From Ascaphus truei (Eukaryota; Chordata; Amphibia; Anura; Ascaphidae), in contig CM071573.1 of assembly GCA_036426205.1 (NCBI GenBank), positions 39,449,771 to 39,513,770 on the forward strand: a stretch of DNA of 64,000 nt, given 5' to 3'. Positions within the stretch are counted from its first letter, which is position 1. Every line of letters starts with the position of its first letter. Positions 14,260-56,712 of this stretch are shown in pieces. The notes beneath the pieces are model-generated. The model worked only from the letters and a program-made list of their open reading frames with translations, ran no database searches and was not told where the DNA came from. Made by a program: the position numbers and the translations under genes.

Positions 14260-14626
14260 CATGTATATATATATATACCCAACTCAATGTAAACTCCTTT
14301 AGAACTGGGCAAGGAAGGTTATATAAGCTTCACCGCATGGCTCATGGCACAGGTAGTGGCATCTTCAGCTCTTCCGTTAATACAGAACGTGATGACGCCG
14401 CACTCCGTGCAAAGAGAAAAATAGACGTCACAGATGGGTTCCCAGACAGATCATAATAAAATCTTCAAGCTTTATTTTGAAAACATCTCATTAAAATTGT
14501 GCACATGGATCCAACAACAGAAAAATTAGCCTAACGAGTTGTTTGCTGGACACAGCGTTCATCAGAGGCTCCACTAAACGTATATACAGATATCTTTAGT
14601 TATATAGGTATATATATATATAGTTG
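14260..14626 (-). mobile_element. Copy H2: hammerhead-like element between TA repeats
   Basis: On the minus strand the hammerhead-like motif (14530-14572) is followed by an aataaagc block, then ctctttgcacggagtgcggcg, then a ta repeat at the 3' end. Another ta repeat lies at the 5' side, so the element seems to have entered a ta-rich target and its target duplication cannot be read. The order motif, aataaa, T-rich, gagtgcg is the same as in the sister copies. Confidence 0.55.
14530..14572 (-). ncRNA. Hammerhead-like motif, copy H2
   Basis: Read on the minus strand: CTGATGA, one extra A, then a GCTG/CAGC stem with a tgtc loop (the preceding C lies outside the stem), then AAAC and a CGTTAGG end. 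The seven-base first core segment is intact. The G that should start the GAAA segment is replaced or lost, so catalysis is unlikely. Confidence 0.5.
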
Positions 14627-14989: not shown

Positions 14990-15530
14990 AAAGGTGTTGG
15001 AAACCAGCAGAGAAGCAGTGAGATGGGACTTAGAAAAAAAATACATTTTTCCTGCATAGGATTGATGCCGGGAATCTCTGGAGCTGATATACATTAATAT
15101 TAGCACCAGAGACCCCTGGCATGAACCCTATGCAATAACAATGCATTTACAGTAAACTTCATTACCATAGCGGATAGCCTCGGGGACCCCCTACTTCCCG
15201 AGATACAGGCCCCGTTATGGGGTGCCGGTATCTCCTATGCATTTTATTCCCATGGTTATGTGACGTGGACATTTAAATGCATAGGAGATACCGGCACCCC
15301 ATAACGGGGTCTGTGTCTCGGGAAGTAAGGTGTCCCTGAGGCTATCCGCTATGGTAATGAAGTTTACTGTAAATGCATTGTTATTGCATAGGGTTCATGC
15401 CAGGGGTCTCTGGTGCTAATATTAATGTATATCAGCTCCAGAGATTCCCGGCATCAATCCAATGCAGGACATTTTTTTTGTTTTCTAAGTCCCATCTCGC
15501 CGCTTCTCTGCAGGTTTCCAACACCTTCAC
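14990..15530. mobile_element. 540-bp palindromic element
   Basis: The left arm starts ggtgttggaaacc at 14993, and the right arm ends with its exact inverse at 15513-15525. Matching blocks run inward over about 250 bases per arm to a centre near 15250-15270. Arm similarity is high, so the transcript could fold into one long hairpin. Both arms carry a catccagagattccc-type block and a gataccggcaccccataacgg-type block. It has no coding capacity and no clear target duplication. It is probably a non-autonomous DNA transposon of unknown family. Confidence 0.8.
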
Positions 15531-16385: not shown

Positions 16386-16500
16386 TGATATGCTTAATGG
16401 TAGAAATGGATTGAAGGCGGTCACTGCATAATAGAACTCAGCCAGGAAAGGATTAAAATAAGCTTTATTTACGATGCTGCACATTACAGAGAGAGAATCT

Positions 16501-16533
16501 TGACGTTTCGTCTCGTCGTGAGACTTTATCAAA
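16501..16533 (-). ncRNA. Hammerhead-like motif, copy H3 left arm
   Basis: Minus strand: TTGATAA, extra A, stem GTCTC/GAGAC with loop acgac, then GAAACG. Relative to a hammerhead, the first core base (C) is T and the sixth (G) is A; the G change removes a catalytic residue. Confidence 0.5.
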
Positions 16534-16609
16534 GGGAACATTCTCTCAACAATGCAGGCAATCTAAATAGGAAGTTTAGATTGCCTGCATTGTTGAGAGA
16601 ATGTTACTC

Positions 16610-16645
16610 TTTGATAAAGTCTCACGACGAGACGAAACGCGTCAG
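16610..16645 (+). ncRNA. Hammerhead-like motif, copy H3 right arm
   Basis: Plus strand: TTGATAA, extra A, stem GTCTC/GAGAC with loop acgac, then GAAACGCGTCAG. It is the mirror of the left-arm motif and has the same two core changes. Confidence 0.5.
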
Positions 16646-17360
16646 AGATATTCTCTCTGTAATGTGCAGCATCGTGAAATAAAGCTGATTTTAATCCTTT
16701 CCTGGCTGAGTTCTATTATGCAGTGACCGCCTTCAATCCATTTCTACCATTTCCACTATCTGGCTGGAGCACGCTGGCGATCCTGCTGCTTAGGCAGCCG
16801 TGTATCCCTTCCAGTGTCTGACGTCCGCCCGCCAAGCGTGAGCAGCGTCGGAGCGCACGGCTTGCTGGGACCTGCCCAGAGAGGCAGTGAGACAACGCCA
16901 TACACCTCGCGGAGGACCTGTGGAGCAGTGAAAGGTGTGCAAGACGGGCACAGATGGCTGGGACCTGTCCTGGAGAAGCAGTGAGACGACACCATACACC
17001 ATACACTGCGTGGAGTGTTCGTGAAGCAGGGACAGGTGTATAAGACGGGCGGTGAGGAGATCGGGTCGGGTAAGGGCAGCGGATTTAGACTGCCGTGAGT
17101 TCATGAGGGAGGCTTCTAACGTGGCTTCCCCTCTTGCCTCTATCTATTTTCTGCTTATCAGCCCCCCACCCGGGTCAGTCTGTTATTCAACACCTCCCCC
17201 CAATTGATATTATTCATTTCATGGGTTATTCTGCAGCATAATTGCCTTAAAACTTTTCTATACATATAGAGGTTGCATGCTTACAAACAGTCTATTACAC
17301 TTGTTAGAGCACGGGACATTTGGGGTTCATCCCCCCTTTTTTTCCTGATATGCTTAATGG

Positions 17361-21330: not shown

Positions 21331-21370
21331 CCAACGTTTCGGTCCTAGGAACAGGACCTTTATCAAGGGA
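21331..21370 (-). ncRNA. Hammerhead-like motif of the Penelope-like element
   Basis: Minus strand: CCC, TTGATAA, extra A, stem GGTCC/GGACC with loop tgttccta, then GAAACGTTGG. The stem differs in sequence from those of H3 and H5 but pairs perfectly. The same core bases are altered as in H3. It lies about 650 bases after the endonuclease stop codon. Confidence 0.6.
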
Positions 21371-22022: not shown

Positions 22023-22800
22023 TTAAATAAAACATCCAAGTCTGAAGTCCTCGTTAAGGCCAAACGGTGACATAGTTTTAAGATCGTGTATCATTTTAGC
22101 CTCCAATTGCAGCAGAAGTCTACTACGATCACCACCTCGAGACGAGGTGTCAGCTTGTAAGATGAGCATACACCTTAAAGTCGACAGACTGTGTTTTTCC
22201 TGTTTAAAATGTCTTGCCACAGGGAGAAGTTTGTAATCCTCCCCTGTGTTCGAGTCCAACAGCGCTTTCCTAATTGTAGATCTATGAACAGCCATGCGTT
22301 CTTTCAACATACGGCTAGTTTTGCCTATGTAATAAAGCCGACACGGACATCTGATGAAATACACGATGAATCTCGTCTCACAATTCATGGGGGTTTTGAT
22401 GTGTATTGATTTTCCAGTGTGTGGATGGGCATAGGTTTGGCCAATCTGTAAAAAGCCACAGTTAATACATCCATGACTTTTATACACACCAGGCTTCTTA
22501 TGTAGCCATGTTGTTGTAGGTGCATATTTGTTCGATGGATCAGCCTCCACGAGAAAGTCCCTCAGGTTTCTACGCCGACGATAGCACATCCTAGGTGGTA
22601 CCTGACAGATATTGCCTTTTTTGGGGTCATTGCTCAAGATGTTTCAGTTCTTTCTAATACTACGTTTGATGACATTAGATGTGGTAGTAAAGGTACTACT
22701 GATGTTGATGCGGCTGGTCTCTATTCCGGCAATACGTGGTGAGAGGAGAGAATTCCTATCCACGCCCCTAGCTTTAATGAGGGCCATATCAATTTCTGAT
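22023..22800 (-). pseudogene. Penelope-like polyprotein, GIY-YIG endonuclease end
   Basis: The product would be the carboxy-terminal part of a Penelope-type reverse transcriptase-endonuclease, which nicks target DNA and copies its RNA there. Visible motifs: a linker with YRRRRNLRDFLV (YRR..NLRD..V is typical of the Neptune group), a CXXC pair in HGCINCG, then VYFIRCPC and YYIGKT, which make up the GIY-YIG signature. A later basic segment follows, with a histidine in AVHRS. One in-frame TGA at 22641-22643 interrupts an otherwise continuous frame. The reverse transcriptase domain itself lies outside the preserved part. Confidence 0.8.
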
Positions 22801-23221: not shown

Positions 23222-23700
23222 CTAAACATAGGTTTGCCAGGTATATGGCTGGTGACGTTCATTCACCCTGTCACATTCCTCCCCTGTTAGTGTGGGGCTG
23301 GGGCCACACACAGCTGAAGCCCGACCATCCACTCCTTCTCTAGAAAAGAAGTCAGCATTTGCATTTTCTTTTCCAGGCCTGTGCTGAATCTCAAATGAGA
23401 AGGGTTGGAGGGCCATATACCACCTGGTCAATCTAGTATTGGAGTCCTTTATACTATTTAACCACTTCAATGGAGCATGGTCCGTCACCAGAGTAAAATG
23501 GACTCCTGCCAGGTAATGTCTCAAAGCCTCGATTGCCCACTTTACTGCGAGGCACTCCTTCTCAATCACTGAGTAGTTTTTTTCCCTCTGGAACAATATC
23601 CTACTCAGAAAAAGGATCGGATGTTCCACTCCCACAAACTGTTGTGAAAATACTGCCCCTAGCCCTATCTCTGATGCATCGGTTTGCACTACAAAAGGCC
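23222..23700 (-). pseudogene. RNase H of the Gmr1-type element
   Basis: RNase H removes the RNA strand during cDNA synthesis. Residues TDASEIGLGAV, KECLAVKWAIEALRHYL, TDHAPLKWL and HRPGKENANAD match Ty3/Gypsy RNase H, including its catalytic acids. The frame stays open for about 155 codons to a stop at 23222. The link back to the reverse transcriptase (23700-23830) is out of frame. Confidence 0.8.
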
Positions 23701-23823
23701 TGTTGAAGTCTGGGCTTCTAAGGACGGGACCCTCTCATAGACACCTTTTTATGTCCTCAAAGGCTCTCTGACACTCCCTTGACCATACCACTTGTGTAGG
23801 GGCACACTTTTTTGTGAGGTCCG

Positions 23824-24960
23824 TTAATGGGGCTGCAACTTCCGAGTAGTTGGGGATGAACCTGCTAAACCCAGCAGAGAGCGTACCTGTGTTTTTGTTT
23901 GGGGGGTCGGAACTTCTTTGAGGGCAACTACCTTGTCGGCTAGTGGCCTTACTTTTCCACCTCCCACTGCATACCCTAAGTATTTGGTTTCCGCCTTACC
24001 TAAGGCACATTTCTTATGGTTGGCTGTGAGCCCTGCCTCTCTTAGAGATTTGAGGACCGCTTTCAGCCTATTTCGATGGGCCCGCCAGTGTTTACTATAA
24101 ATGACAATGTCATCTAGGTAGGCTGCGGCATAACCACTGTGGGGTCTCAGCACTTTATCCATGAGTCTCTGGATGAGTAGCTGGGGCTCCATGCAGTCCA
24201 AATGGCATTATCACAAACTGGTATAAACCCATGGGAGTGGAAAAGGCTGTTTTGCACTTGAACTTTTCCTCTAAAGGTATTTGCCAGTATCCTTTTGTTA
24301 AGTCCAGCGTGGATATATATTCCGCGTTACCAAGGGCGTCAATTAACTCGTCCACCCTTGGTATCGGATATGCGTCAAACTTGGATACCGCATTGACCTT
24401 TCGGAGGTCCACACAAAATCTTACCTTCCCATTGGGTTTAGGGACCATAACTAGTGGACTACACCACTCACTGCATGATTCCTCAATCACTCCTAAGTGT
24501 AACATTTCTTGTACCTCCTTCTCTACCAGGGCCCTACGACTTTCAGGCAACCTATAAGGACGGGAACGTATTTTTACNNNNNNNNNNNNNNNNNNNNNNN
24601 NNNNNNNNNGTTAGGGACCATAACTAGTGGACTACACCACTCACTGCATGATTCCTCAATCACTCCTAAGTGTAACATTTCTTGTACCTCCTTCTCTACC
24701 AGGGCCCTACGACTTTCAGGCAACCTATAAGGACGGGAACGTACGTTTACCCCAGGTGCTGTCTCGATCACATGTGAAATTAAATTAGTTTGCCCTGGCA
24801 AATCAGAAAAAACATCATGGAATTGTGTAATTATTTCTAACAAGTCCCCTTTTTGTTCAAAGGACAACTGTCTACCCATTGGGATTTTATCGTCACCCAC
24901 GATGTTCTCCCGTGGAGGCTGAGGACCCAAGTCCGTTTCTTCCTCCACCGGGTGGATGAA
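23824..24960 (-). pseudogene. Reverse transcriptase of the Gmr1-type element
   Basis: Reading on the minus strand, the domain shows VIEESCSEWCSPLVMVPK, then CVDLRKVNAVSKFDAYPIPR, then LDLTKGYWQIPL, then MPFGLHGAPAT. After a frameshift near 24175 comes the catalytic YLDDIVIYS box. A thumb-like segment with KCALGKAETKYLGY follows. An assembly gap at 24578-24609 interrupts the domain, and about 130 bases appear on both sides of it. The true locus is therefore shorter than the sequence shown. Confidence 0.85.
24578..24609. other. Assembly gap with duplicated flanks
   Basis: A run of 32 N. The roughly 130 bases before it (24442-24570) recur almost exactly after it (24613-24743). This is best explained by two contig ends that overlap but were not merged. 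Confidence 0.95.
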
Positions 24961-25054
24961 TAGAGACCGCTGCATCTTCCAGGGTTTCAGCAAGTTTACA
25001 TGGTAAATTTGTTTACCCTTCCTGGACCCTGGTTGAGCAATCTCGTAATCCACA

Positions 25055-25946
25055 TCACCCGTGCGGCAGAGTACTTCGAATGGGCCCTGCCATTTTGCTA
25101 GGTGTTTGATCATTTTGATTGTAATGTCTCTCCTGACTGTCCTGGGCTGATATAAGATTCTCCCTAGCAAAATGCCCGACCACATCTAGGCGCTTCTTAA
25201 GGTCCAATACATATTGCTGGGTATTCTTAGAAGGGGACCGCTGTTCCTCCCAGGACTCCTTTAGAAGGTCTAGGATACCCCGGGGTTGGCGGCCATACAG
25301 CAGTTCAAATGGAGAGAATCCCGTGGAGGCCTGGGGAACTTCCCGCACTGCAAAAAGCAGAAAAGGGAGAAGTTAATCCCAGGCTCTCTTCTCTGAATCT
25401 ACAAATTTCCTCAGCATCCCTTTTAGAGTTCGGTTAAATCTTTCCACCAATCCGTCAGTCTGTGGATGGTAGACCGATGTCCTAACAGACTTGACCTCTA
25501 GTAATTTTAAGACATCCTTCATCAGTTTAGCCATAAAATTTGTACCTTGGTCTGTCAACATAACCTGGTGAAATCCAACCCTTGAGAACAGCTCCAACAA
25601 CTTGTTGGCTACTTGCTTCGCCATTGCTGTTATCAGGGGGAACGCCCTCGGATATCTTGTTGCATAGTCAACTATTACAAGAATAAACCTGTGTCCTTTC
25701 GCAGAAGGTTCTAGAGGTCCTACCAGTCTCACCCCAACCCTCTCAAAGGGAACTGACACCAAGGGTAGAGGACCCAAGGGGCTGTTTTTGTCCCTTCAGA
25801 CTAGTTAGCTGGCACTCCGGACATGCCGCCCATAACTTAGCAATATCACTATGCATCCTGGCAAATAGAATCGGGACGAAATCCGGTCCAATTTTTATCT
25901 CTGCCAAGGTAACCACCCCAAGGGACGTATGGGCTAGAGTGAACAC
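25055..25946 (-). pseudogene. Integrase of the Gmr1-type element
   Basis: Integrase joins the cDNA to host DNA. The zinc-binding start is decayed: CPECQ remains, but the paired histidines and first cysteine are not all present. The catalytic core is clear, with aspartates in VDYATRYPRAF and TDQGTNF and the glutamate in HPQTDGLVERFNRTL. A conserved GFSPFELLYGR segment follows, and then a QGPFEV...YHVNLLKPW carboxy module. Frameshifts near 25775 and 25350 split it into three frames. It runs without a break into the reverse transcriptase below. Confidence 0.8.
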
Positions 25947-28765: not shown

Positions 28766-29610
28766 AAATGTAAATATATATAACTTGTGAGATACCGCTC
28801 ACCACAATAATGAATACAGTCAGATAGCATGTAATATAGTGTAATTACAGCTGGTGCAAAGGGGATAGTAATGACAGACACAGACACATAAGGAGACAGA
28901 GAGTTCTCCTACAAAATCCCCATTAACTGCACAACAAAGCTGAAGATGGTCTTCAGGGTTCAAATACCCACTATATAAGTAACTAGAAAAGCTGTAAGGG
29001 GTACAGATAAGCAACCGCTCCCAGCACTGTGGGAGGGCAGTTACCACTAAAAGCCAAATGGCCAAAAATAATAAATACTTTAATAATCAACCAAAACGGC
29101 GCATAATTAATGACGCATACTCAATACTAACGTAAAAACAACTAAAACACATAAAGGGTGGCACCCGGTGAAGGCATATCTGAGGGTAATTCCACAATAA
29201 CTAGGTATAAATCCCTTTACTAGGTACTCCGATCGCAGATGATGAGACAGGGTGTATAAATCGATGTCAGGATGTGAATAATGATCATAGCCTCTTATCT
29301 CAGGGTGGGGTGCAGGTACGAGTGAAAATCAATAGGTGGATGCTGTAAGTTAGGGAAACAAATCAGGAATCAATCCTGTTCAATATGTCCCATAGTCAAT
29401 AACACTAAGTGTATGAACAGCATTAAGCACAACGCGCCATGTGTAAGCACAATGCATATACGATTCCAAGCCCACCGCTCCCCACCGCATCAAAACGATC
29501 TCACCCGTTACTCCTCCTCCACGACGTCAATGCAATGACGTCATGCCGACGTACGTTTCGCGCATAAGGGTCTGGCGCTTTCTCAAGGTGGGAGGACAAA
29601 ATGTAAATAT
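28766..29610 (-). mobile_element. Copy H5: complete hammerhead-like element inside an L1
   Basis: The element covers 28778-29598. It is flanked by a 12-bp direct repeat, AAATGTAAATAT, at 28766-28777 and 29599-29610. L1 coding sequence continues on both sides, which proves the insertion. On the minus strand the motif is close to the 5' end (29550-29591). About 450 bases further come an attaaag...tttattattttt block, a ccatttggc block and a cccacagtgctggg hairpin-like piece, and the element ends with gtgagcggtatctcac and a short ta run. No ORF is recognised. A truncated inverted relative lies at 27545. Confidence 0.75.
29550..29591 (-). ncRNA. Hammerhead-like motif, copy H5
   Basis: Minus strand: CCACC, TTGAGAA, extra A, stem GCGC/GCGC with loop cagacccttat, then GAAACGTACG. 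The stem again differs from other copies but pairs. The core carries the same first-base and sixth-base changes as H3 and H4. Confidence 0.5.
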
Positions 29611-31431
29611 CCTGTTCTGTAGGTCTTTTAGTTTGCTTTTGGGACATGGGTCAAGAGTGTTTGGAAAAGATATAGTAGCCTGGGTAATACATTCATCTTT
29701 ATTGAGGTAATTCTACCTATCCATGATATTTGATGCTTGTTCCACTCTAGTAGGTCTTTTCTAATTTTATCAATTAGGGGGGGTAGTTGCATTGGTATAG
29801 TTTATCGTACTCGTTAGTGATGTTAACCCCTATGTACTTAATATGGGAGACTCACCATTTATACTTTTTTTTAAAATTAGGAACCTAATTTTGGCATTTG
29901 GGAGAGAAATATTTAGGGCCTCTGACTTGTCATTATTGATCTTATAACCTGATAGTTCACCGAATTTTAACAATAATTTCTGTAGGTTTGGGAGTGAGAC
30001 TAGAGGGTTGGCCAGGGTCAGGATAACATTGTCTGCAAACAATGAGATTTTATAGTTTCTTTGTCCTATAACTATCCCTTGAATATCTGAGTTCAATTTG
30101 ATCTTAGATGCTAGGGATTCGATTGAGAGGGCAAAGAAGAGAGGAGATGAGGGGCATCCCTGTCTCGTTCCATTTTGATATCTATAGGTTCTAGTTTGGT
30201 CCCTGGTAATTTAACTAGTGCTCTAGGGGACTGATACAGGGCTCTCACCCCTTCCAGGAAGGGGCCCACAAAACAAAAAACTGCATAGTGCTATCCAAGA
30301 ACCTCCAGTCGATTCTATCGAAAGCCTTTTCTGCATCCAGACTCAGCAGAATGGCCGTGGTCTTAGTTGCATTGGTATGTTCTATTATGTCTATACTTTT
30401 CCTCGTGTTATTGGAGGCTTGCCTGCTGGAGACAAAGCCCAGCTGATTTATGTGTATTAACCTAGGTAGGATAGGATTTAGCCTGTTGACCAGAATTTTA
30501 CAGTATAGTTTTATGTCTGAATTTAGGAGTAAGATAGGCCTGTAACTGCCGCATTCGAGGGGGTCACAACCTGCTTTATGTATAATGGCAAGGTTAGCTG
30601 TAGTCATTGTTGTTGGGATTGACATCCTTTCCATAAAAAGAATTAAACATCTCTAAGAGATATGGTGAAATAGTTGGGAGACATGTTTTATAATAGTTAT
30701 TGGAGACCCCACCTGGGCTTGGAGATTTAGCATTCTTGAGGTTTTTGACTGCGTTAGCCAGTTCTATCTGTGTGATTTTCCCATTTAGGCTTATTTGTTT
30801 AGCCATGGTTAGTTTGGGTAGATTGCAGGTTTCTAGATAATTTGCCATAGCCTCTGAATTTGACAGCAGTGGGCAGCCCCCTGACCTATTTAAATTATAT
30901 AAATTCGTATAAAAACTTGCGAATTCGCGTGCAATCTCCTCTTCATCATATGATGTCTCTCCATTAAAGCGTCTAATGGGGGAGATTTGTTTTCTGTTTT
31001 TTAGACCCCTCAATTGTCTAGCTAATAATCTGTCTGCTTTGTTCCCTGTATCGTAATATAGCTGTCTAGTCCACATTAGTGCTTTTTCAACCTCTTCTAC
31101 TTGTATTTTTTTAGTTCTAATCTTGTGTCGGTCAGAGCTTTGTATAGTTCCTTTGGTCTTAGTTGATGTTCTTGTTCTAAGTTACATATCTTTTATGTCA
31201 GTTCTTTACACAATTTCTGTCTGATTTTCTTCTTATGGATGGCTATTCAGATTGACTCCTCGTATGGTAGCTTTATGGGTTTCTCATAACATTGCAGTAG
31301 AGTCTACTGAACCTTTATTAAGACTGAAGTATTCTTCTAAGGAAGATTTTTTTTTTTTTTTACATCTTTCGGATAATTTAGGAGGGATTCATTTAACCTC
31401 TAATGAAATAGATTGCTTCGTGTGAAAGGGG

Positions 31432-31700
31432 ATGGCTATATCACATGGTATTACAGCCAATGGGATTGAAGACAATCCCATTGGTTGCTGTACCATGTGA
31501 TAGGTCACATTAGTTCAAAAGGATGTGACATCATCCCTTAAAGTGACATCGCATCCTTTTGAACTAATGTGACCTATCACATGGTACAGCAACCAATGGG
31601 ATTTTCTTCAATCCCATTGGCTGTAATACCATGTGATATAGCCATGTGGTTTTAAGGATGTGACGTACCTCCCTTGGAGATGACGTTACATCCTTAAAAA
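31432..31700. mobile_element. Nested palindromic element
   Basis: The main palindrome spans 31432-31647: GGCTATATCACATGGTATTA at the left returns inverted at the right end, with a centre near 31538. Each arm contains its own hairpin (aatgggattg...caatcccatt). A second small palindrome at 31652-31700 (aaggatgtgacgt...acgttacatcctt) repeats the central block of the first. It lies where the L1 reading frame breaks off, so it probably inserted there. Family unknown. Confidence 0.75.
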
Positions 31701-34111: not shown

Positions 34112-36340
34112 ATATTTTTTTTAAAACTCTTTCTTTATTGAAAGTTTTATGAGAAGGTTGCAGAAAAGAAAAGAGGGTTGGGGGGAGGCTGGTACACATC
34201 ATATACATTTTACAATTCAATTATATTCACAGACATCTCAGAACAGTGCACAAGTCTTTATAGTAACTTACTTAGACAAACCTGTATATTGAACTCTTCA
34301 TTAAGAGAGCAGATAGAAGGTAAAACTCCCCAGAGAATACTAAATATGCCCTCGGGTTATTACATGTTGTGAAACTTCCCATGGATGCCACGCATTGCAG
34401 AACTTATCACAGGTTCCGTTTAGTAGGCGAGTGAGCCACTGCATCAAGTTAACTTATTGCAGTTTATGAAGAATTATATTAAAGGGAAGGGGTTCTTACT
34501 ATTTCCAATATTTTGCAATTACACACCTAGTAGTGGGCAGAATATGAGAGATTAGGATCTGGGATGGTTTGGGGATTCTCTGAACTTTCGTATGCAGGAG
34601 TGCAATAAACGGATTCCTTGGTATCTCAAATCTGGTTACAGATGTAATAGTTGTAGAGAAAAGAGGAAACTGGTGCACAGTCCAATGAAGTGGGTCCCAT
34701 GATAACAAAAATAAATGTTTATTGATGTGAAAACATCCAACAAACGGAGGAGAGCAACCTCCTACGCGTTTCGAAACGCATAGGAGGTTGCTCTCCTCCA
34801 TTTGTTGGATGTTTTCACATTAATAAACATTTATTTTTGTTATCATGGGACCCACTTCATTGGACAGTGCGCCAGTTTCCTCTTTTCTCTACAGCTATCC
34901 ATGTCTACTTGGCTGCACGTCTACCAGGAATCCAAAGGACCAGTGCAATATGTAAGTACTTTTAACACTTTGAGGGGGACCATCCCCATTGGAGGTATTA
35001 TGGGGGTTTATTGCTTGCCCCTACCTCAGGGATCTTTTGGCCCCACAGAGGATGTTATGTCTTATTAGCCTGAGTTCCTTTCTCCATCATTTGTGTGATC
35101 AAACACTGGAGCGCAGTTGTCACTATAAATTTTTACAGATGTAATAGTGTCAAAAGTTCGAGACCATGTGGCGGAGATTTGGGGGCACAACCACCAGATG
35201 TGGGACATTGTCCCAATCTCCCCACAGTCCCTCCAGCATCTGTTGGAAACCTTTTGGAAATTTTTGTGGCGTCTCATAGGAACCATATACCAACGGAAAA
35301 TAATTTTGTATCCATTTTCTTTTATGTTTGTACAAATTGAACTGTATTGGTAAATATAATTTTCCATTCCTCAAGTGAAAGAGTCGTGCCAAAAATCCTT
35401 CTCCCAGTTTAACATATATTAAATTTTAGTGTCGGGATACACCTTGGAGAAGGTTATAGATGATGGTTCAACCTTTTATACAAGAGGAGCCTAGACATAA
35501 TTGTTCAAATCTAGTAGGATTATTTAGTTCCCCCCCCCCCGGAGGATCAAAGAAAGCAAAACATGTGTTAGCTGGAGAAACCTATATAGTTACAAGTTAG
35601 GGAGACCATAGTGTGTTCGTACTGTATGTTTGCTAAAGATTGTAATGTTCCTAATTCAAACAAATGGGTTATTCTGGGTATACCTATATCTCACCAATTA
35701 GAGAAACTCTAAGTATGATTTCCAGCTAGAAACTTTGGGTTAAAAAATAATGGTTGAAGAGAGGAGGAAGACCGTGTCAGCCCCACCTTCATGGCCCCTT
35801 TATACTAGTAGAAAAGGGAGCATTGGATGGAAGTCACATCGCAGGCCTCCCTAGAATGTACAGAGTTGGGTACCAAAAGCAAGTTGGCGAGAGGAAGGGA
35901 TAGTAATAGTGTACGTTCAATTTCTACCCAGCGTTTAGGGTCGGTAGCTTTATGAAAGTCAATGAGGGCGGCGCTCTTAGCCACTACTAGATATAATTTG
36001 AAGTTGAGGAAGGCTAGGCCTTCCATATTTGTAGGCCTTTGTAAAATAGATGTGGCTGTTCTTGTTCGAGCCAAATTAAATTATTTATTTTTGACTGATC
36101 GGTGTTCAGATCCTTTTGGGAATTGTAAACTGAAGTGCCTGGAAAATATATAGCAACCTAGGTAACATATTCGTTTTAACTGCAGCAAATCTGCCCAACC
36201 ATTATATCTCTGTTCTATCCAACATTTTTAAACAATATTATCACAATCTTTAGAATTTAAATACAAATGAGAGCACTGATCAGATAAAAGCTTCCCTTAT
36301 GGATACATTGTTTTAGTAGTCTCTCTATTCCCAAGATTAA
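34112..36340 (-). mobile_element. L1-type LINE, 3' half
   Basis: Minus strand: an A-rich 3' end with aataaag near 34125-34140, then the ORF2 carboxy end split by copy H6. The zinc-knuckle segment (35300-35150: CWRDCG, MSHIWW, CP) and an upstream part near 36074-35990 (GLAFLNFKLY, like the GGLxLPN motif of L1) are clear, and further upstream is a decayed GWADLLQLK region near 36200. A C run at 35531-35540 lies inside it. The opposite-strand L1 segment starting at 36345 supplies the missing reverse transcriptase, which suggests a 5'-inverted copy. Confidence 0.75.
34636..35147 (+). mobile_element. Copy H6: inverted-duplication element with 15-bp target duplication
   Basis: The element covers 34651-35132. 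The perfect direct repeat TTACAGATGTAATAG flanks it at 34636-34650 and 35133-35147, and L1 sequence continues on both sides. The first 243 bases form a near-perfect palindrome centred on TTTCGAAA at 34772. Each arm begins at the CGAAACGC.TAGGAGG half of the recurrent motif and ends with gtgcgccagtttcctctttt. The first half of the motif is absent, so the fusion point lies exactly within it. A single-copy tail of about 240 bases follows. Confidence 0.8.
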
Positions 36341-40829: not shown

Positions 40830-41796
40830 GTAAATCAGTATAAGAGGTGAATGTCCAGAGATGGGGACGGAGCACTGCTGAAAAATACAGGGGCTAACAC
40901 CATGTGAGAGTTAAAAAATTATGTTTTAATGATGTGGCATGTAGGGAACCAATTCTGACGCGTCAGTTGTTATCATGTTCCCTACATGCCACATCATTAA
41001 AACATAATTTTTTAACTCTCCCATGGTGTTAGCCCCTGTATTTTTCAGCGTGCTCCGTCCCCATCTCTGAATGTTCACCTCGCACGCATCAGGACAAGCT
41101 GCCTAAGGCTGCGGTCCCAGTGATCACTGTGCCACGTGCGCCAGGCGGGGGGTGGGGGGGCGGCGCGTGCACAGCGCACCCGCGATCTGCAGTCTTTAGG
41201 GAGAGAGGGAGATTGCGATGGGAGGGGGCGTGGGCGGGGTTTTGCGGGGGCGTGGCCATGACCTCACGCGGCTGGTTCGCCCTCATTGGGTGAACCGCCG
41301 GCGGGGGCGTGGCCACGCCTCTGTCGCCAGTTCTGAACTCAATTCCATTGAGTTAAAAAAAACTGCGAGTACAGCGCGGCTGCACCTTCAGCGGGAAGGT
41401 GAGTACTGGGCCCAGCCCCATTGAGGGGCGGTGCTTACACGCACAGCGCCCGCCGAGGTGTGCGCTGTAGCAGTGACTGGGACCGCAGCCTAATGTGAGT
41501 ACTGTTTTTTCTACACTAATTGACTGTGGAGGAATTGACCAACATTGGTGTTACTCTAGGTGTGTCCAGTGGAGTCCTTCCATTGTATTATGCTTTGTAC
41601 CTCCACTACATGGACAGTTATTGCTATTAACTCCTCATATGAGATGCAGATACACTGGGTCTATCAGTCTCACTGGGCTTAAACTCAGAACTTGTCCTAT
41701 ACATACTCATACTCATGATGCAAGACTTATTGGAATACATGTTTCCTGTGGATACTGAGCACCGTTACTTGGAACCTTTTCGTAAATCAGTATAAG
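40830..41796 (+). mobile_element. Copy H7: inverted-duplication element with 15-bp target duplication
   Basis: The element covers 40845-41781 and is flanked by the perfect direct repeat GTAAATCAGTATAAG at 40830-40844 and 41782-41796. Its first 240 bases are a palindrome (40846-40948 with 40970-41083) centred on ctgacgcgtcag, which resembles the ACGCGTCAG end of the H3 motif. The arms contain the T-rich block and the tgctccgtcccc block typical of sister tails. A Harbinger MITE is nested at 41107-41490. The single-copy tail continues to 41781. Confidence 0.75.
41107..41490. mobile_element. Harbinger-type MITE, GC-rich, nested in H7
   Basis: A 384-bp element with inverted ends GGCTGCGGTCCCAGT. 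It is flanked by TAA on both sides (41104-41106 and 41491-41493), the TWA target of PIF/Harbinger transposons. It is very CpG-rich. It carries GGTTCGCCCTCATTGGG near 41273, shared with the element at 8465. It must be younger than H7, because H7's target duplications lie outside it. It codes for no transposase. Confidence 0.85.
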
Positions 41797-43519: not shown

Positions 43520-43962
43520 TATATAAAAATTATATATCAGTGTATATGTACAATTTTTCAAATTCTCATTTGGTTCCTATACCTAATCCAACTACTAATC
43601 ATAAAAAGAGATTATTAATACTAATCTTAATTCTGACTTAAATTCTAGACAAAAATTACTCACCCATTTGTACTAATGAATTGGTATACTATCCTTATGG
43701 TTAACAATTTCAAACAATATTTTGTGAAATTTTCAACTATTTAAACATATATTTTGTGAAAATACGAGCTATTTAAACACCAATTTGATCAAATTTTTTT
43801 AAAGATTTAGTGCGGTCCTCATAATCAGTCTATTGGGATTGTTATTGAATGATGTTTAATGTAATAGACTGGTTAAACCTTTGTAATCAACTCATTAATT
43901 GACTCGTTAATATATGCAAATTTCCTTGATATAAATACTATGGAGGGGCATCCAATGGGTAT
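42718..43962. other. AT-rich region with two TA microsatellites
   Basis: ta repeats at 42718-42796 and 43436-43516. The rest is AT-rich, without gene or paired ends that I can support. Confidence 0.6.
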
Positions 43963-44001
43963 CCCCTGATGAAGTCATGATAGATGACGAAACGCGTAGG
44001 G
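43963..44001 (+). ncRNA. Hammerhead-like motif, copy H8
   Basis: In order: CCC, CTGATGA, extra A, stem GTCAT/ATGAC with loop gatag, GAAAC, GC, GTA, GGG. Except for the extra A after the first core segment, this is a complete type-I hammerhead layout: CCC and GGG would form a three-pair stem I, A and C after GAA pair with GT in a minimal stem III, and GTA would be the cleavage triplet. All conserved core bases are present. The extra A and very short stems I and III make activity uncertain. Confidence 0.6.
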
Positions 44002-44905: not shown

Positions 44906-44943
44906 GGACAAGCTTTCGAGAGTTATCCTCTCTTCTTCAGGTC
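44906..44943 (-). ncRNA. Hammerhead-like motif, copy H9
   Basis: Minus strand: CTGAAGA, extra A, stem GAGAG/CTCTC with loop gataa, GAAA, GCTT, GTC. The first core segment fits the hammerhead pattern CTGANGA exactly, because its fifth position is free, and GTC is the most common cleavage triplet. The same extra A is present as in the other copies. Confidence 0.55.
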
Positions 44944-47522: not shown

Positions 47523-47563
47523 CTTAGACCTGGGGTGCCCCTTGAGACAAAATTACCGCCACA

Positions 47564-48760
47564 ATGGCCCTTCCGTCCCGTCAGGAAATACGTGACTGGG
47601 CGCGGCAAATGCGCACGCCTGCCCGCCGCGCTGTAGTTGTGACACGAGTACCTATGGCGTTAGCTTTAGAGACTTTGAAAATGGCTCTACGACAACTACC
47701 GGGTTTTGCCAAAGCCCGCCTAGTTTATGTGCTCATAGACCAAGATGCTAAATGGAGCACTTTGCTAGTAGATTGCCGGCGAGACCTAGTAGTATTAGAA
47801 CCTGCCGTCCCTCAATATCTGCCGCTGCCCGATGCTCCACCTGGCGGAAGCCCTTTTGTCTATCCACTTCGGGACCCTCCTGTGGGGGAACTAGATGATG
47901 ATGACCCCACACTTCCTTTTGCTCACTACCCCGCGAGCGAGGTGGCCAGCTGTCAGTCAGAATCTAGCTATCCTGGGTCTAGCGCATCCGCCGAAGTAGG
48001 GGTGCGTAGTGATATGCTGCGGAAACTCAATGACAAGATAGACCAGTTAACCGTCCCCTCCAGCCTACCGGCGTTAGTAGAAGCACCTACCTTAGCCACA
48101 CATTCACAAAGCTACCGGAAATTAAAGGCCTTCTCGGGGACGCTACCTGTGCCCACGGGAGAGGATGGGATAGACCCGTGGAAGGAGCACACTAGGGGAG
48201 TAATGGAGGAATGGTCTTGCACCGACGTGGTGAAACGGCAATGACTCATGGAGTGCTTATGACCCCCGGCGTCCACATTGATCAGCATTCATCGAGAGCA
48301 GTACCCCGACCTAACCGCTCGTATGATGATCGAGTTCCTGGTTGAGGCATATAGCGTGACTGAGGATGATGGGGCCTTGTGGGCCAAATACTATGCCATC
48401 ATCAAAAGAATGGTGAAGACCGAGTGCAAATCTCCCTTGGGCCCCTGTTGCATCATAAATATGTGGCCGCCTCCCAGATGGACGAATACCTCCGCAGACA
48501 ATACCTACGAGGGTCCAATCCTACTCACCCTATAGCAAACATGATTCGCGACAACCTAACTCGAGGGCCCCCTCCCTCGTTTATCAAACTCTTACAGCAA
48601 GTCAAAGAGCACGAGACGCATCTTATGCTTCACTCTCCCCAGAAGGCTAAAACAGTCAGCAGCACTAAGCCAAAGGAAGTGCTGAAAAGAAGGAGGACCC
48701 ACCGGACAAACCAGGTCCCGAACGGCCGAAATACGCTGGACGAACCTCGCCTCCGTATGA
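47564..48760 (+). pseudogene. Gag of the Ty3/Gypsy element, PNMA/Arc-like capsid
   Basis: Gag forms the particle that packages the element's RNA. The start at 47564 is the first ATG after the primer site. The first 75 residues (EIRDWARQM, AVVVTRVP, then a DCRRDLVVLE segment) resemble the RRM-like start of PNMA proteins. From about residue 188, FSGTLPVPTGEDGID.W, EEW and the following EHREQYPDL-type helices resemble the PNMA/Arc capsid lobes. A TGA at 48242-48244 and a frameshift between about 48400 and 48480 break it. The zinc knuckle lies in the next frame. The PNMA likeness is from pattern recognition and not from a search. Confidence 0.65.
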
Positions 48761-48782
48761 CCGCCGTACCCCACCCCGGGAT

Positions 48783-49559
48783 ATGTCCTGCTACAAATGC
48801 AGGAAGAAAGGACATATCTCCTACGATTGTCGGATGGGAGAGTCTCGCCACCGAAGCCCGTCCCGCAAGAAGTTCACGTCCCAGGCCATGGTCTGCGGTG
48901 TGTATGCGGTCGGGCCAGAAACTCCGGTGTCAACCCAAAGTGGCGAAGACCCCGAAGAGGAGGGTAACCGCGTGGGACCGGTAGCGTTGATCCAGGTGTT
49001 AGTGGACGGGATTTACTCCTCCGCACTACTGGACACGGGGTCTCAAGTCACCATCATATATCGGGGGTTCTATGATCGACACCTCCAGAAGCGGCCTCTG
49101 AGAGCGGCAGGGCATATCAAAGTACGAGGCTTAAGCAATGACGACTACCCCATCGATGGGCTGGTGACCATAGATCTGGAGATACAGCAGCTCAACACAG
49201 GGAAGTCTCACCCTATGAAGGTGGACGCTTTGGTGTGCCCCGAACCCAAAGATACACCTAAGTACCCAATCATCCTAGGCACGAATGCGGACATTGTACA
49301 AGCCGTCATCCGGGCCTATCTACACGAAGCCAACGAACTGCCCATGTCCTGCCTACAGTTGCAGCTGGTCCAGGTGGATCCAGTTCCTCCTCTATCCCCA
49401 TCGGAGGACTGCGGACTGTTGTTCTACGGATGGGGAGGGTTGACCAGACTCTTACCCGGCGAGACACAGAGGGTACCCGCCTGGTGTGCCTACGCTGAAC
49501 GAATAGACGAGGAGCAGCTGTTTTCTTTCGAAAGCACACCCGAAGAAGATGTCCGCTGA
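48783..49559 (+). pseudogene. Zinc knuckle and aspartic protease of the Ty3/Gypsy element
   Basis: The frame opens with a canonical CCHC knuckle, CYKCRKKGHISYDC (48789-48830), which binds the RNA during packaging. About 75 residues later comes LLDTGSQVTI (catalytic DTG near 49031), the active site of a retroviral-type protease that cuts the polyprotein. A GTNADIVQA segment follows. The frame ends with TGA at 49557-49559. It is offset from gag, so a frameshift occurred between about 48700 and 48785, or the original expression used one. Confidence 0.85.
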
Positions 49560-49701
49560 GGATATCTGCTAGTGACGGAATTCCGGGAGTGGCCAACAGC
49601 CATTCCCCATCGAATTTATGTGATGGTGCAGAATCTTTCACCCTTCCCCCTGGCCATCGACGCGGGGACAGCGAATAGGGAGAATTTACCCCGTCAGCTC
49701 G

Positions 49702-50840
49702 GTGGATGAAACCGTACAGGTAAAGACTACCAGAGTGGACGAACCCGGATCGCCGTTAGATTTTGACTTCGGTTCATCCGGACTGTCGGACGCCTGGAAA
49801 GAACGATTACGAGTACAGCTGGAAGAACGACGATCAGTATTCTCTACTAGGGAAATGGATGTGGGGTGTAGTCGCAACGCCCAACACACCATTCGGATGA
49901 CTGATACCAAACCCTTCCGGGAGCGTTCCCGTCGGCTAACCCCTAGTGACGTAGAGGATGTACGAGCTGCGATCAACGAAATGGAAGAAGCCGGAATTGT
50001 CACAGAATCACGAAGCCCTTACGCCTCACCCATAGTGGTCGTGCGAAAGAAGAATGGGACCGTGAGGTTGTGTGTTGACTACCAGACACTGAACAATCGA
50101 ACGGTACCGGACCAGTATAATCTTCCCTGCATAGAAGAAATCCTGGATACCCTACATGGGAGCCAATGGTTCAGTGTCTTGGACCTTCGGTCCGGCTACT
50201 ACCAAGTACCTATGAGCCAGAGGATCAAGAGAAGACGGCGTTCGTCTGCCCCCTAGGGTTCTATCAATTCACATGTATGCCCCAAGGCATATGTGGTGCC
50301 CCCGCCACCTTCCAGCGGCTAATGGAGAAGACTCTAGGTGACTTGAACCCCCGAGAATGCCTCGTGTATTTAGATGACATCATAGACTTCGGGAAAACCC
50401 TGGAAGAGCACGAGGCTTGACTCTTGAAAGAACTTGACCGATTAGCGCAAGAAGGGATCAAACTCTCCTTGGATAAATGCCATTTCTGCCGGACCTCTGT
50501 GACTTACGTGGGACACATAGTGTCCGGCGAGGGAATTGCCACGGACCCCGCCAAGATAGAAGCTGTTGTCAATTGGCCCCGCCCTGACAATGTGGGGAAG
50601 TTGCGGTCGTTCCTGGGGTTCTGCGGCTACTATCGCAGGTTCGTGGAGAGGTACTCCAGGCGGGCTAAAGCCCTCAACGGCCTCCTCAAAATATATCCGG
50701 AGGACACAGGCCGGAAGGTCACACCTGCCCGACAGTCCTTCGGGGACAAATGGACACCCGAGTGTGCCTTTACGGATCTGAAACAGAGTCTGACAGCGGC
50801 ACCCGTGCTGGCCTATACCAACCCCGAACAACCGTACATA
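49702..50840 (+). pseudogene. Reverse transcriptase of the Ty3/Gypsy element
   Basis: Visible motifs in order: EAGIVTESRSPYASPIVVV, CVDYQTLNN, SVLDLRSGYYQVPM, CMPQGICGAPATFQ, the catalytic VYLDDII box near 50365, and KCHFCRTSVTYVGHIVS followed by LRSFLGFCGYYRRF. The part up to about 50230 is in one frame; the rest is shifted. A TGA at 50418-50420 adds a stop. The reading runs on into RNase H, where the MITE at 50841 interrupts it. Confidence 0.85.
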
Positions 50841-51200
50841 CACTGGCGACACGCTTTATTGCGCATCGGCCAGATCCGCAAGCCGGGAGATTTCCCGGCT
50901 TGCTAGTGGCCGCCCCTCGGCGTGCCGCGCGTCATAGACGCGCGGTCACGCGTCTTCGGGAGCGTGCGCCCCCTGCACGCGCGTCCAGGGGCTCCCCGAG
51001 GGAGCCCTGGTGTCCCGCGATCGCGGGACAGCGGCAGGGGGTTCCGGGGGACCCGGCGGACCCGGCAGCGGTAGGGAGAGCGCCCCGATCGGAGGGCGCT
51101 CTTCCGCTGCTTCGGCGCGCGCCCGTCACTCTCGGGCGTGCGCCAGGCTACTGCTGCGGCACAGAACGGGCAAATGCTCGAATAAACTGTGCCGCAGCAG
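50841..51200. mobile_element. TA-target MITE inside the RNase H region, GC-rich
   Basis: A 360-bp element flanked by TA (50839-50840 and 51201-51202). Its inverted ends share the pattern GCG.CAC..TTTATT and match the family of the MITE at 45093. The inside is very GC-rich with several short perfect palindromes, such as tcccgcgatcgcggga near 51014. Host coding similarity stops exactly at its left edge and resumes at its right edge in a frame offset by its length. The insertion destroyed the RNase H domain. Confidence 0.85.
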
Positions 51201-51202
51201 TA

Positions 51203-51870
51203 CTACATGTGGATGCTAGCCTCAACGGCCTAGGAGCAGTATTACATCAAAAGTATCCCGAGGGGTTGCGACCTGTAGCGTATATCAGCCGCAGTCTTAC
51301 TGCGGTGGACCGAAACTACCCCATGCACAAACTCGAGTTCTTGGCCCTCAAGTGGGCCATTGTGGACAAACTTCGTGATTATTTGTACGGTGTGTCGTTC
51401 GAGGTGCGGACCGACAATAATCCCCTCACCTATATCATGACCTCCGCCAAACTCGACGCGGCCGGGCATCGCTGGTTGGCCGCTCTATTCAATTACACTT
51501 TCACCTTGAAATACAAGCCAGGCCCCCTGAACATTGGAGCGGACGCCCTGTCTAGGCGACCAGGGCTGGCCACTACTCCTGACGAAGATCAGTGGGAAGA
51601 AATTCCGGGACCCGGAATAAGGGCCCTATGTGGTACAGCTGCCATAGTCAATGACCAAGTGGCATTTTCCGAATTACGAGTGGCTGACTCTCTAGGGTGC
51701 ACCTCAAATGCTATCCCGGAAGCCTATCGAGACCCCAGTGGTATGCATGTTACGCCAGACAAGATCATCACCTGGAAAGATATGGTACGATACCAAGAAC
51801 AAGACCCGGTCGCAAGGGCCATTCTTTATGCCCTCCGACAAAATCGCCCGGCCCTGGACAGGCCCCGGGG
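51203..51870 (+). pseudogene. RNase H of the Ty3/Gypsy element
   Basis: After the MITE, HVDASLNGLGAVL carries the first catalytic aspartate. YPMHKLEFLALKWAI follows with the glutamate, then VRTDNNPLTYI with the second aspartate, and LNIGADALSRRP near the end, as in Ty3/Gypsy RNase H. A spacer leads to a frameshift near 51865, where the integrase frame takes over. The domain start lies left of the MITE at about 50760-50840. Confidence 0.85.
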
Positions 51871-53517
51871 GATGTAGGAGGTCTACTGATGCGGGAAGCT
51901 GACAAATTTGAAATACGAGACAATTTGCTATACCGAGTTGTGGAGTATCATAATCACCCGAACAGAAGACAATTAGTACTGCCAAAAAGACTACAGTACT
52001 TGGTACTGAAGGCTCTACACGATGAACACGGCCATTTGGGGGTAGACAAGACTTTTGGACTAGTGAGAGAAAGGGTTTTCTGGCCAAAGATGAGAGAAGC
52101 AGTAGAGTATCACTGCCAACGATGTGTGCGGTGTATTCAGCGGAAGACCTTACCCACCAGGGCCGCCCCAATGGGCCACTTAAAAAGTACGGGACCCATG
52201 GACTTAGTATGTATGGACTTCCTGTGTATCGAACCTGATAGCCGTGGCATAGGGAATGTGTTGGTCATCACGGATCACTGTACCCGATACGCCCAGGCCT
52301 TTCCGACCAAAGATCAAAAAGCCATTACGGTGGCCAAAGTGCTCTGGGAGAAGTACTTTATGCATTATGGGCTTCCTCAACGCCTCCATTCAGATCAAGG
52401 AAGAGACTTTGAAAGCAAGTTAATAAAAGAACTGCTGAAACTATTGCATATCAATAAGTCCCGCACTATTCCATACCACCCCAAAGGGGATGCACTGACG
52501 GAAAGATTCAACCATACTTTACTAGACATGTTAGGCACGTTAACGGGGGTGGAAAAGACTGAATGGAGTCGGCATGTGGAAACATTAGTGCATGCTTACA
52601 ATTGCACGCGACACGATTCCACCGGGTTCTCCCCCTACTTTCTCATGTTTGGCCGAGAAGCTAGACTGCCTGTGGACATATGGTTGAGAGTCTCCACGGA
52701 TGGAGTGCATAATACTACACATTTCCGCTATGTGCAGCGATTGCAAGAGAATCTGCAACGGGCCTACCGAAAAGCCGAGAAGTCCACCAAAAAACTGAAT
52801 GCCGGGAATAAAAGGCGGTATGATCATAAAGTTAAACACAGAGACATTAAACCTGGCGATGCAGTGCTTCTCCGTAACCTGGGAGTACCGGGGAAACATA
52901 AGTTGGCTGACCGATGGCGGGAGGGAGTGTATGAGGTAGCCTCTCAAATGCCTGGCCTTCCAGTCTACCGCATTAAAGACTCGGAGGGCCGGGTGAAGAC
53001 CTGGCATCGGAATCATTTACTCCCTATTCCCCGAGTGGAGGAGGGGGATTTGGAATGGCCGTCATCCTCGTTGGATGGGGAGATATCAATGGAAGAAGAA
53101 GAGTCAGGTAACTCCGATGTTCCGGAAGATCCACAAGAGGGAACCTCTCAAAGGGGCCCTCAACAGAGAGCACCTCCCGGCGGAGCTTCGGGTAAAGGGC
53201 ACCGGGAGCGCTCGCCCCAGGGGATGGCTCCGAAAGATTCAGAGTTGGACCCACTGAGCCCGTGCTTCGTACCCATTCATGACAATGTAGAGATCGCAAC
53301 CCCCTCAAGGGAAGAACTCCAGGTGCAAGACTCAGATAGTCACTCTCCCGCGGGAGTGACCGAACAGCAGTTAAGGCGAAGTCAGAGGAATGGGCAACCT
53401 CCAATGAGGATGGCCTACGATCAGCTTGGGGCACCCCACTATGAGGCTCAGCAGTGGGCTCGCAATCGAGTGAAATCAGTAATTGTGATGTTTAGTGAGA
53501 TGTACAATCTGATTTAG
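51870..53517 (+). pseudogene. Integrase of the Ty3/Gypsy element
   Basis: The longest intact frame in the window. The zinc-binding HHCC module is complete: HDEHGHLG with CQRCVRC (52018-52135). The core has its aspartates in VCMDFLCI and HSDQGRDF and the glutamate in GDALTERFNHTL, all three catalytic acids. A conserved STGFSPYFLMFGR segment and a carboxy module ending WHRNHLLPIP (about 53000-53030) follow, then a long Pro/Gly/Glu-rich tail to 53517. There is no chromodomain and no env gene after it. This part alone still looks translatable, though the frame upstream is broken. Confidence 0.9.
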
Positions 53518-56344: not shown

Positions 56345-56712
56345 ATAAACCTCTGGCAGGTGAAAGAATTGGGGTGCTCCAACCCGCAGCTACTCCATCC
56401 AGTATATAAATAATATTATTATAGACCCTGGAGAAACCAGTGGGAGTGGGTAGGTGCTTTAAGACTTGTAAGTATCAGTGACAATAAGTCAAGCTTAACC
56501 ATAATAGTCTGAACCAATGAACCCCACTCAAAGGTTATACTCCTTGATAAAGGACCCGTTGGTCCGAAACGCGTAGGAGGATTTTGCCTGTGTCCCCCAA
56601 GGGGTGATTTTGTCTCATACCATGCTGAAATAAAAGAAAACTTTTTGTTCCACACCTGGCTCCCTGGCTGTGCGCCATTCGTTTTTTGCTGTTGGATAAA
56701 CCTCTGGCAGGT
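56345..56712 (+). mobile_element. Copy H10: complete 334-bp hammerhead-like element
   Basis: The element covers 56362-56695. A perfect 17-bp direct repeat, ATAAACCTCTGGCAGGT, flanks it at 56345-56361 and 56696-56712. It is the smallest complete copy and has no inverted duplication. The motif lies in the middle (56540-56579), followed by aaataaaagaaaactttttg and the ctgtgcgccattcgttttttgctg end shared with H6 and H8. With no ORF and no A tail, it is a good type copy for the family. Confidence 0.8.
56540..56579 (+). ncRNA. Hammerhead-like motif, copy H10
   Basis: In order: CTCC, TTGATAA, extra A, stem GGACC/GGTCC with loop cgtt, GAAAC, GC, GTA, GGAG. CTCC and GGAG pair as stem I. The first core base is T instead of C and the sixth is A instead of G; loss of that G removes a catalytic group. 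Confidence 0.55.

Follow-up and report, generated by a model that had tools for sequence, protein, structure and literature searches.

The window, i.e. the whole 64-kb stretch of Ascaphus truei DNA that was analysed, carries short motifs with the organization of hammerhead ribozymes, several palindromes and part of an open reading frame of a Penelope-like element (PLE) (Table 1). Both strands were scanned for YTGANRA followed by an A, a stem with four or more Watson-Crick pairs and GAAA. The first core bases of the seven matches lie at +16611, +43966, +56544, -44940, -29586, -21366 and -16532, compared with a mean of 0.027 matches in 150 dinucleotide-preserving shuffles (146 with 0 matches and 4 with 1). 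The matches at -16532 and +16611 are the arms of one palindrome, which brings the independent sites to six (H3, H4, H5, H8, H9 and H10). A first-pass annotation of this DNA had proposed at least seven sites sharing the motif and named seven stems. The scan bears out the number, with H2 not among its matches: the stems of the six independent sites are confirmed, while H2 lacks G12 and looks decayed. H2 also has an extra C and is absent from the 18 matches, up to E 5, given in the window by a covariance model built from the seven sites. It was ruled out as a good copy on these three grounds and is probably a decayed one, because a possible stem I (GCCT/AGGC, seen by eye) and an upstream TATATA are kept.

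Table 1. Hammerhead motifs and associated features of the window, in order of position.
Feature	Position	Strand	Description
H2 (GCTG/CAGC), probably decayed	14529-14569	-	best candidate; core at 14565; extra C, no G12
Head-to-head palindrome	16396-16751		bears both H3 hammerheads, facing outward
H3 partner arm	16495-16538	-	core and stem II as in H3, ACGU; proximal stem I mostly lost
H3 hammerhead	16595-16657	+	ACGCGU; predicted cut after C16643
H10 hammerhead	21331-21368	-	stem I CC/GG proximal, UUGAUAA, extra A, GGUCCU/AGGACC, ACGU; predicted cut after U21333
C-terminal GIY-YIG part of Penelope-like ORF	22026-22643	-	Pfam E 7e-4; protein relatives
H5 hammerhead	29546-29588	-	stem I CC/GG only, UUGAGAA, extra A, GCGC/GCGC, ACGUACGU; predicted cut after C29548
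Head-to-head palindrome	34647-34898		126-nt arms, 95% complementary, no spacer
TATAAA box	43930-43935	+	36 nt upstream of H8 core
H8 hammerhead	43963-44001	+	CCC, CTGATGA, extra A, GTCAT/ATGAC, GAA, ACGCGT, A, GGG
H8 stem I, 5' strand	43963-43965	+	CCC
H8 core; extra A	43966-43972; 43973	+	CTGATGA; A
H8 stem II; loop	43974-43978/43984-43988; 43979-43983	+	GTCAT/ATGAC
H8 GAA; stem III strand; base 17; stem I, 3' strand	43989-43991; 43992-43997; 43998; 43999-44001	+	GAA; ACGCGT; A; GGG
H9 hammerhead	44907-44943	-	stem I GAC/GUC, CUGAAGA, extra A, GAGAG/CUCUC, AGCU; predicted cut after U44910
H4 hammerhead	56540-56579	+	stem I CUCC/GGAG, UUGAUAA, extra A, GGACC/GGUCC, ACGCGU; predicted cut after A56575

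The sites share a common anatomy. A short covarying stem I leads into the core, which is followed by one extra A after A9, a covarying stem II and GAA; a self-complementary strand (ACGU, ACGCGU or ACGUACGU) then replaces the stem III hairpin and precedes a base 17 that is rarely G and the other strand of stem I. The core reads CUGANGA or UUGANAA, so that either C3-G8 or U3-A8 is kept, as is the case in all seven window sites. For H8, the coordinates given earlier are exact, and the stem I and GTA that this copy was said to offer are seen as CCC/GGG and as ACGCGT followed by A43998, after which cleavage is predicted. The fullest stem I is that of H3, with CUCU/AGAG, an internal loop and then GAGAGAAU/AUUCUCUC. 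The lowest-energy fold of H8 competes with stem I, and that of H5 lacks stem II.

The hammerhead structure applied to the seven window sites, two of which are related, has 97.6% of its cells paired. Its covariation score is 1.095, whereas shuffles give 0.256 and slid versions of the structure 0.048-0.214. The covariance model from these sites recovers all seven at E <= 8e-8, by construction, and has no further match in the window at E below 1. Chance matches were drawn from IMG/VR viral contigs with a nearly identical consensus (two scans, 120 stretches from each). A stem of at least 4 bp was present in 5/240 of them, among the matches listed, showing that the stem is no by-product of the consensus. 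A stricter pattern had no match in viral contigs and 5 matches in bacterial genomes.

The motif is very abundant in the A. truei genome. The pattern YTGANRAAGN{8,25}CGAAACG matches 71,061 places (35,472 + 35,589) of the 2.82-Gb assembly, while the reversed pattern, used as control, matches 400. The strands CUGANGA and GAAA sit around stem II in the seven window sites and in these genomic sites, which agrees with the earlier identification of the constant parts as the two core strands of the hammerhead. The departures from the CUGANGA core are U3-A8 for C3-G8 in about half of the sampled copies and the extra base before stem II. Covariation was assessed in a sample from 100 listed places, all on contig C1. 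Leaving out C1:2426982 and 13 places beyond C1:3.43 Mb, 86 were taken and one identical sequence was dropped, which yielded 85 sites. These are related to some extent, and the covariation figures are therefore no strict probabilities.

Pair 1 of stem II is set by the search pattern. Pairs 2-5 are Watson-Crick in 80/85, 69/85, 69/80 and 52/70 sites, where the margins (base composition) predict 22.7, 22.3, 29.5 and 18.8, and each of these positions features all four Watson-Crick types. Pairs 6 and 7 are at expectation (14/44 vs 11.6 and 3/15 vs 2.9). Contiguous pairing, with G-U counted, sums to 324 compared to a mean of 127 and a maximum of 159 in 2,000 permutations (n = 77, with 53 distinct 5' strands). 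Stem II is a real covarying helix. The change of stem sequence with conservation of pairing, first noticed in the window, extends to the genomic alignment that had been suggested as a check, in which the two stem halves vary together across the 85 sites far above expectation.

The sites were chosen without regard to the C3-G8 pair, stem I and the stem III strand, apart from Y3 and R8, which are fixed by the pattern. Positions 3 and 8 form C-G in 35 sites, U-A in 44, C-A in 4 and U-G in 2 (Fisher p 5e-17), and of the 36,145 genomic sites that have G8, 34,057 have C3. The strand after GAA is self-complementary in most of the 85 sites (ACGCGT 47, ACGT 22, ACGTACGT 2, ACGCGCGCGT 2), and in 73 such a strand is followed by A, C or U; the other 12 have no such strand or a G next to it. 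When base 17 is counted freely it is A in 28 sites, U in 36, C in 9 and G in 3, with 9 sites lacking a self-complementary strand, i.e. G occurs in 3 of 76. The three exceptions look like decayed ACGTNCGT. Across the genome ACGCGTG follows the motif at 788 places (control 1). Many of those listed form a single family, TTGAGAAAGGGC..GCCCGAAACGCGTG, in which perhaps another register is in use or the copies are inactive.

Stem I was analysed in the 73 sites that have both a self-complementary strand and an A, C or U after it. At offset 0, positions 1-4 pair in 62, 59, 50 and 34 of them compared to 47, 36, 21 and 19 expected, while six other offsets are mostly at expectation. The largest off-register excesses are 37 vs 21 (offset +3, position 3) and 28 vs 20 (offset +2, position 2), with a further one of 30 vs 23 (offset -2, position 4). 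Contiguous stem I pairs amount to 213, against 113 when permuted and a maximum of 145 in 2,000 permutations. Fewer than three contiguous pairs are found in stem II of 20/85 sites and in stem I of 24/73; together with the 12/85 sites that lack a self-complementary strand with A, C or U at position 17, this shows that many copies are decayed. Within one molecule stem III would be limited to 2-4 bp or to a very tight loop. Since its strand is usually self-complementary, dimers are predicted, and these could form stem III.

The A inserted after A9 is nearly fixed in the core (71,061 sites, control 400). Cores with no inserted base (YTGANRAG..) number 3,045 (control 1,208) and those with C, G or T instead of A number 1,802 (control 900), a count that shares members with the previous one when GG comes next. 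An added A between A9 and G10.1 is likewise described in the plus hammerhead of chrysanthemum chlorotic mottle viroid (PMC3705267). In that study A10 moderately slows trans-cleavage, C or G is strongly detrimental and U is 3-4 times faster. The viroid motif is a full hammerhead with loop-loop contacts, in contrast to the self-complementary stem III of the present motifs, which belong to retroelements.

Linkage to PLE genes is seen both inside and outside the window. The core of H10 begins 660 nt past the GIY-YIG part, on the same strand. The Pfam match of this part (20.3 bits) is just under the cut-off of 22.6; the part is 76% identical over 85 amino acids to an A. truei protein, and a PDB sequence search with it gave no match. 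Used as a tblastn query, it matched seven loci outside the window at E <= 1.5e-7 (L269, L272, L258, L270, L263, L275 and L325; matches L248 and L249 overlap L258 and were dropped), and all seven matches are followed 56-3,474 nt downstream by a hammerhead on the same strand. Two weaker matches, the second one of L275 (E 2.6e-6) and L259 (E 3e-4), have hammerheads on the opposite strand only. The loci were picked around hammerheads, which biases nearness and leaves order and strand unbiased. Locus L270 has a reverse transcriptase frame (807-1937), a GIY-YIG match (2355-2708) and then a hammerhead. Pfam found no RVT_1 in this frame; it has 115 relatives, many with PF00078, the best being a Xenopus tropicalis reverse transcriptase (45% identity), and is 35% identical over 231 amino acids to a reverse transcriptase of Anolis carolinensis. 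From its motifs we take it to be of the Penelope type. The succession of a telomerase-like reverse transcriptase and GIY-YIG that defines PLEs is thus present at L270, though in interrupted frames. At L258 the GIY-YIG frame, 52% identical to a Xenopus laevis GIY-YIG protein, is surrounded by 322 bp that are 100% identical at both ends.

The arrangement of the copies is also that of PLEs. Of 27 hammerheads, taken from the window and 20 long regions, 10 are accompanied by an inverted copy in their own region and occupy 7 places; 17 have none in the region examined, and no site (0/27) has a direct-repeat copy within its region. These 10 sites and the ends of L258 reproduce the pseudo-LTR (pLTR) arrangement of PLEs in inverted form. 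The 34647-34898 palindrome has its centre, TTTC|GAAAC, inside the motif, so that both arms start at the motif's 3' half; it is perhaps the junction of two cDNAs at the ribozyme. Inverted pLTRs and head-to-head junction palindromes are described as frequent in Penelope elements (PMC3846280). Three further palindromes of the window (15035-15484, 31432-31645 and 40877-41049) are near-perfect fold-backs with arms 94-99% complementary, and no hammerhead half was seen at their ends or centres.

Putative transcription signals are phased with the motif. TATAWA peaks 30-49 nt upstream of the core, with 26 starts over 73 sites compared to 0-4 per 10-nt bin elsewhere, and is present at -75 to -25 in 20/73 sites vs 6 at -175 to -125; overlapping matches are included in these counts, as are related sites. 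Given how far a TATA box usually lies from the start site, transcription would begin at stem I or just before it. AATAAA has 28 starts within 220 nt downstream and 20 upstream (72-73 sites). Among the downstream ones 17 fall in the nearest 60 nt, vs 1 upstream, and this AATAAA is possibly a polyadenylation signal. Outside the core a MAFFT alignment of the long flanks revealed little in common.

The sites are very probably minimal type I hammerhead ribozymes of PLEs, located in pLTRs and in truncated copies. In the mechanism that can be proposed, the TATA box just upstream would start transcription near stem I. The transcript would then carry a ribozyme at its 5' end and a second one in the 3' pLTR. 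Pairing of two copies through the self-complementary stem III, within a single RNA or between two RNAs, would build an active dimer that cuts after base 17. From tandem or read-through transcripts, cutting may then free element RNA of unit length. In PAc of Anolis, the one PLE tested in vitro, the ribozyme showed no cleavage without protein and insertion did not require it; RNA ends at the cut site were not detected (PMC11167929). The need for protein and the dispensable ribozyme count against a simple role in processing. A more tentative idea, of low probability, is that a whole lineage of hammerheads, with tens of thousands of copies in one vertebrate genome, a fixed A10 and C3-G8/U3-A8 switching, has its ribozyme positioned by the TATA box at the very 5' end of the element RNA. 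Its self-complementary stem III would let the 5' and 3' copies sense each other and confine cutting to cases in which two pLTRs are present, as a check of completeness.

An alternative of low probability is that the hammerhead fold persists by descent and presently serves for protein binding or as a packaging signal, and hardly cleaves in vivo, if at all. The lack of effect of PAc catalytic mutants on insertion and RNA-seq data without cleaved ends would fit such a function (PMC11167929), as would the slowing of the viroid hammerhead by the extra A (PMC3705267), while the C3-G8 covariation, the scarcity of G17 and the register of stem I are demands of catalysis rather than of a binding hairpin.

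The interpretation as PLE ribozymes has also to be confronted with a second hammerhead family of the same genome. Many of the listed places with no inserted base belong to this other family, CTGATGAGACCC..GGTCGAAAC, a canonical type I hammerhead in which CTGATGA runs straight into stem II without the extra A. Of 344,898 first-look candidates, 74 were scored with the Rfam model Hammerhead_1 (RF00163), with at least 42 matches above the cut-off; 14 control genomes gave none. Canonical loci lie on C6, C4, C12 and C5 of this genome (L336-L339). Rfam searches of the window gave no match at gathering and no hammerhead at E <= 1, where the 49 matches, to microRNA families and one scaRNA, are all below cut-off and were taken for inverted and simple repeats. 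No hammerhead family was detected at E <= 1 in nine extra-A loci either. The extra-A form is missed by the Rfam models, RF00163 included. Of the hammerhead models, whose use on the window and genome had been recommended in the first-pass annotation, RF00163 fails on the extra-A form and the seven-site model recovers its own seven. The genome therefore carries two kinds of hammerhead, and the window holds the extra-A kind. That its sites are canonical type I retrozyme hammerheads of the newt-satellite type, and not PLE motifs, is very improbable and was rejected: the genome does possess such a family, but this one has no extra A, the Rfam searches of the extra-A loci and the window were negative, and the absence of direct-repeat copies in the 27 sites is at odds with tandem repeats.

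An equally faint chance is left to a DNA-level hairpin, such as the end of a DNA transposon, with an accidental RNA reading; the copies within head-to-head palindromes invite this view, which was rejected because the linked genes are reverse transcriptase and GIY-YIG parts and the C3-G8 covariation and stem I register would be left unexplained, while most sites (17/27) lack an inverted copy in the region examined and such palindromes are known from PLEs (PMC3846280).

As PLE ribozymes, the A. truei sites are no new system. They are new members of the published minimal type I hammerheads of PLEs, numerous in animals (PMC6155905, PMC7761336, PMC7229834) and originally described by Cervera and de la Pena (2014) and by Lunse, Weinberg and Breaker (2017). 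The published motifs, PAc among them (PMC11167929), likewise have stem I, stem II and the core with no proper stem III, and linkage to reverse transcriptase and GIY-YIG; dimer cleavage is expected for them and their C3-G8 pair is essential. Dimer cleavage of PLE variants is the title subject of Lunse 2017 and is called possible in PMC7761336. Compared to these hammerheads, as portrayed in the papers that cite the original descriptions, the extra A is here the rule and U3-A8 occupies half of the copies. These two traits, with A10 nearly fixed, and the promoter phasing may be new details. A literature search retrieved no paper on the C3-G8 pair of hammerheads, nor on an extra A in retrotransposon hammerheads.

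Amphibian retrozymes and newt satellite hammerheads resemble the present motifs in being of type I, more active as dimers and present in very many copies, and they have a very weak helix III with a palindromic tetraloop (PMC7229834). The axolotl has 126,247 motifs, and those with the palindromic tetraloop cut better as dimers (PMC7229834). Retrozymes differ in being tandem repeats of non-autonomous elements (PMC7229834), and the retrozyme-like form of the A. truei genome lacks the extra A. The Penelope pLTR of Adineta vaga shares the TATA box, the inverted pLTRs and the head-to-head palindromes, while the words hammerhead and ribozyme are absent from its description (PMC3846280).

A single genome here offers tens of thousands of natural variants of one ribozyme core. 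They reveal which pair of the core is free to switch, and that near-fixation is possible for an insertion that slows a viroid ribozyme. Should cleavage be confirmed, the role of the Penelope ribozyme becomes directly testable by way of the TATA phasing and the self-complementary stem III.

Several copies have a GTGCGCC-like word further downstream of the motif. A tRNA scan of the window found none. Frames of the LTR-retrotransposon type lie at 47546-53514 (+), with integrase domains in 51688-53514, and at 23225-25795 (-), with an integrase C-terminal domain in 24577-25185. LINE-like reverse transcriptase frames occupy 29833-31181 (-), with RVT_1 in 29833-30210, and the H5 copy seems to be placed just after them, as if inserted there.
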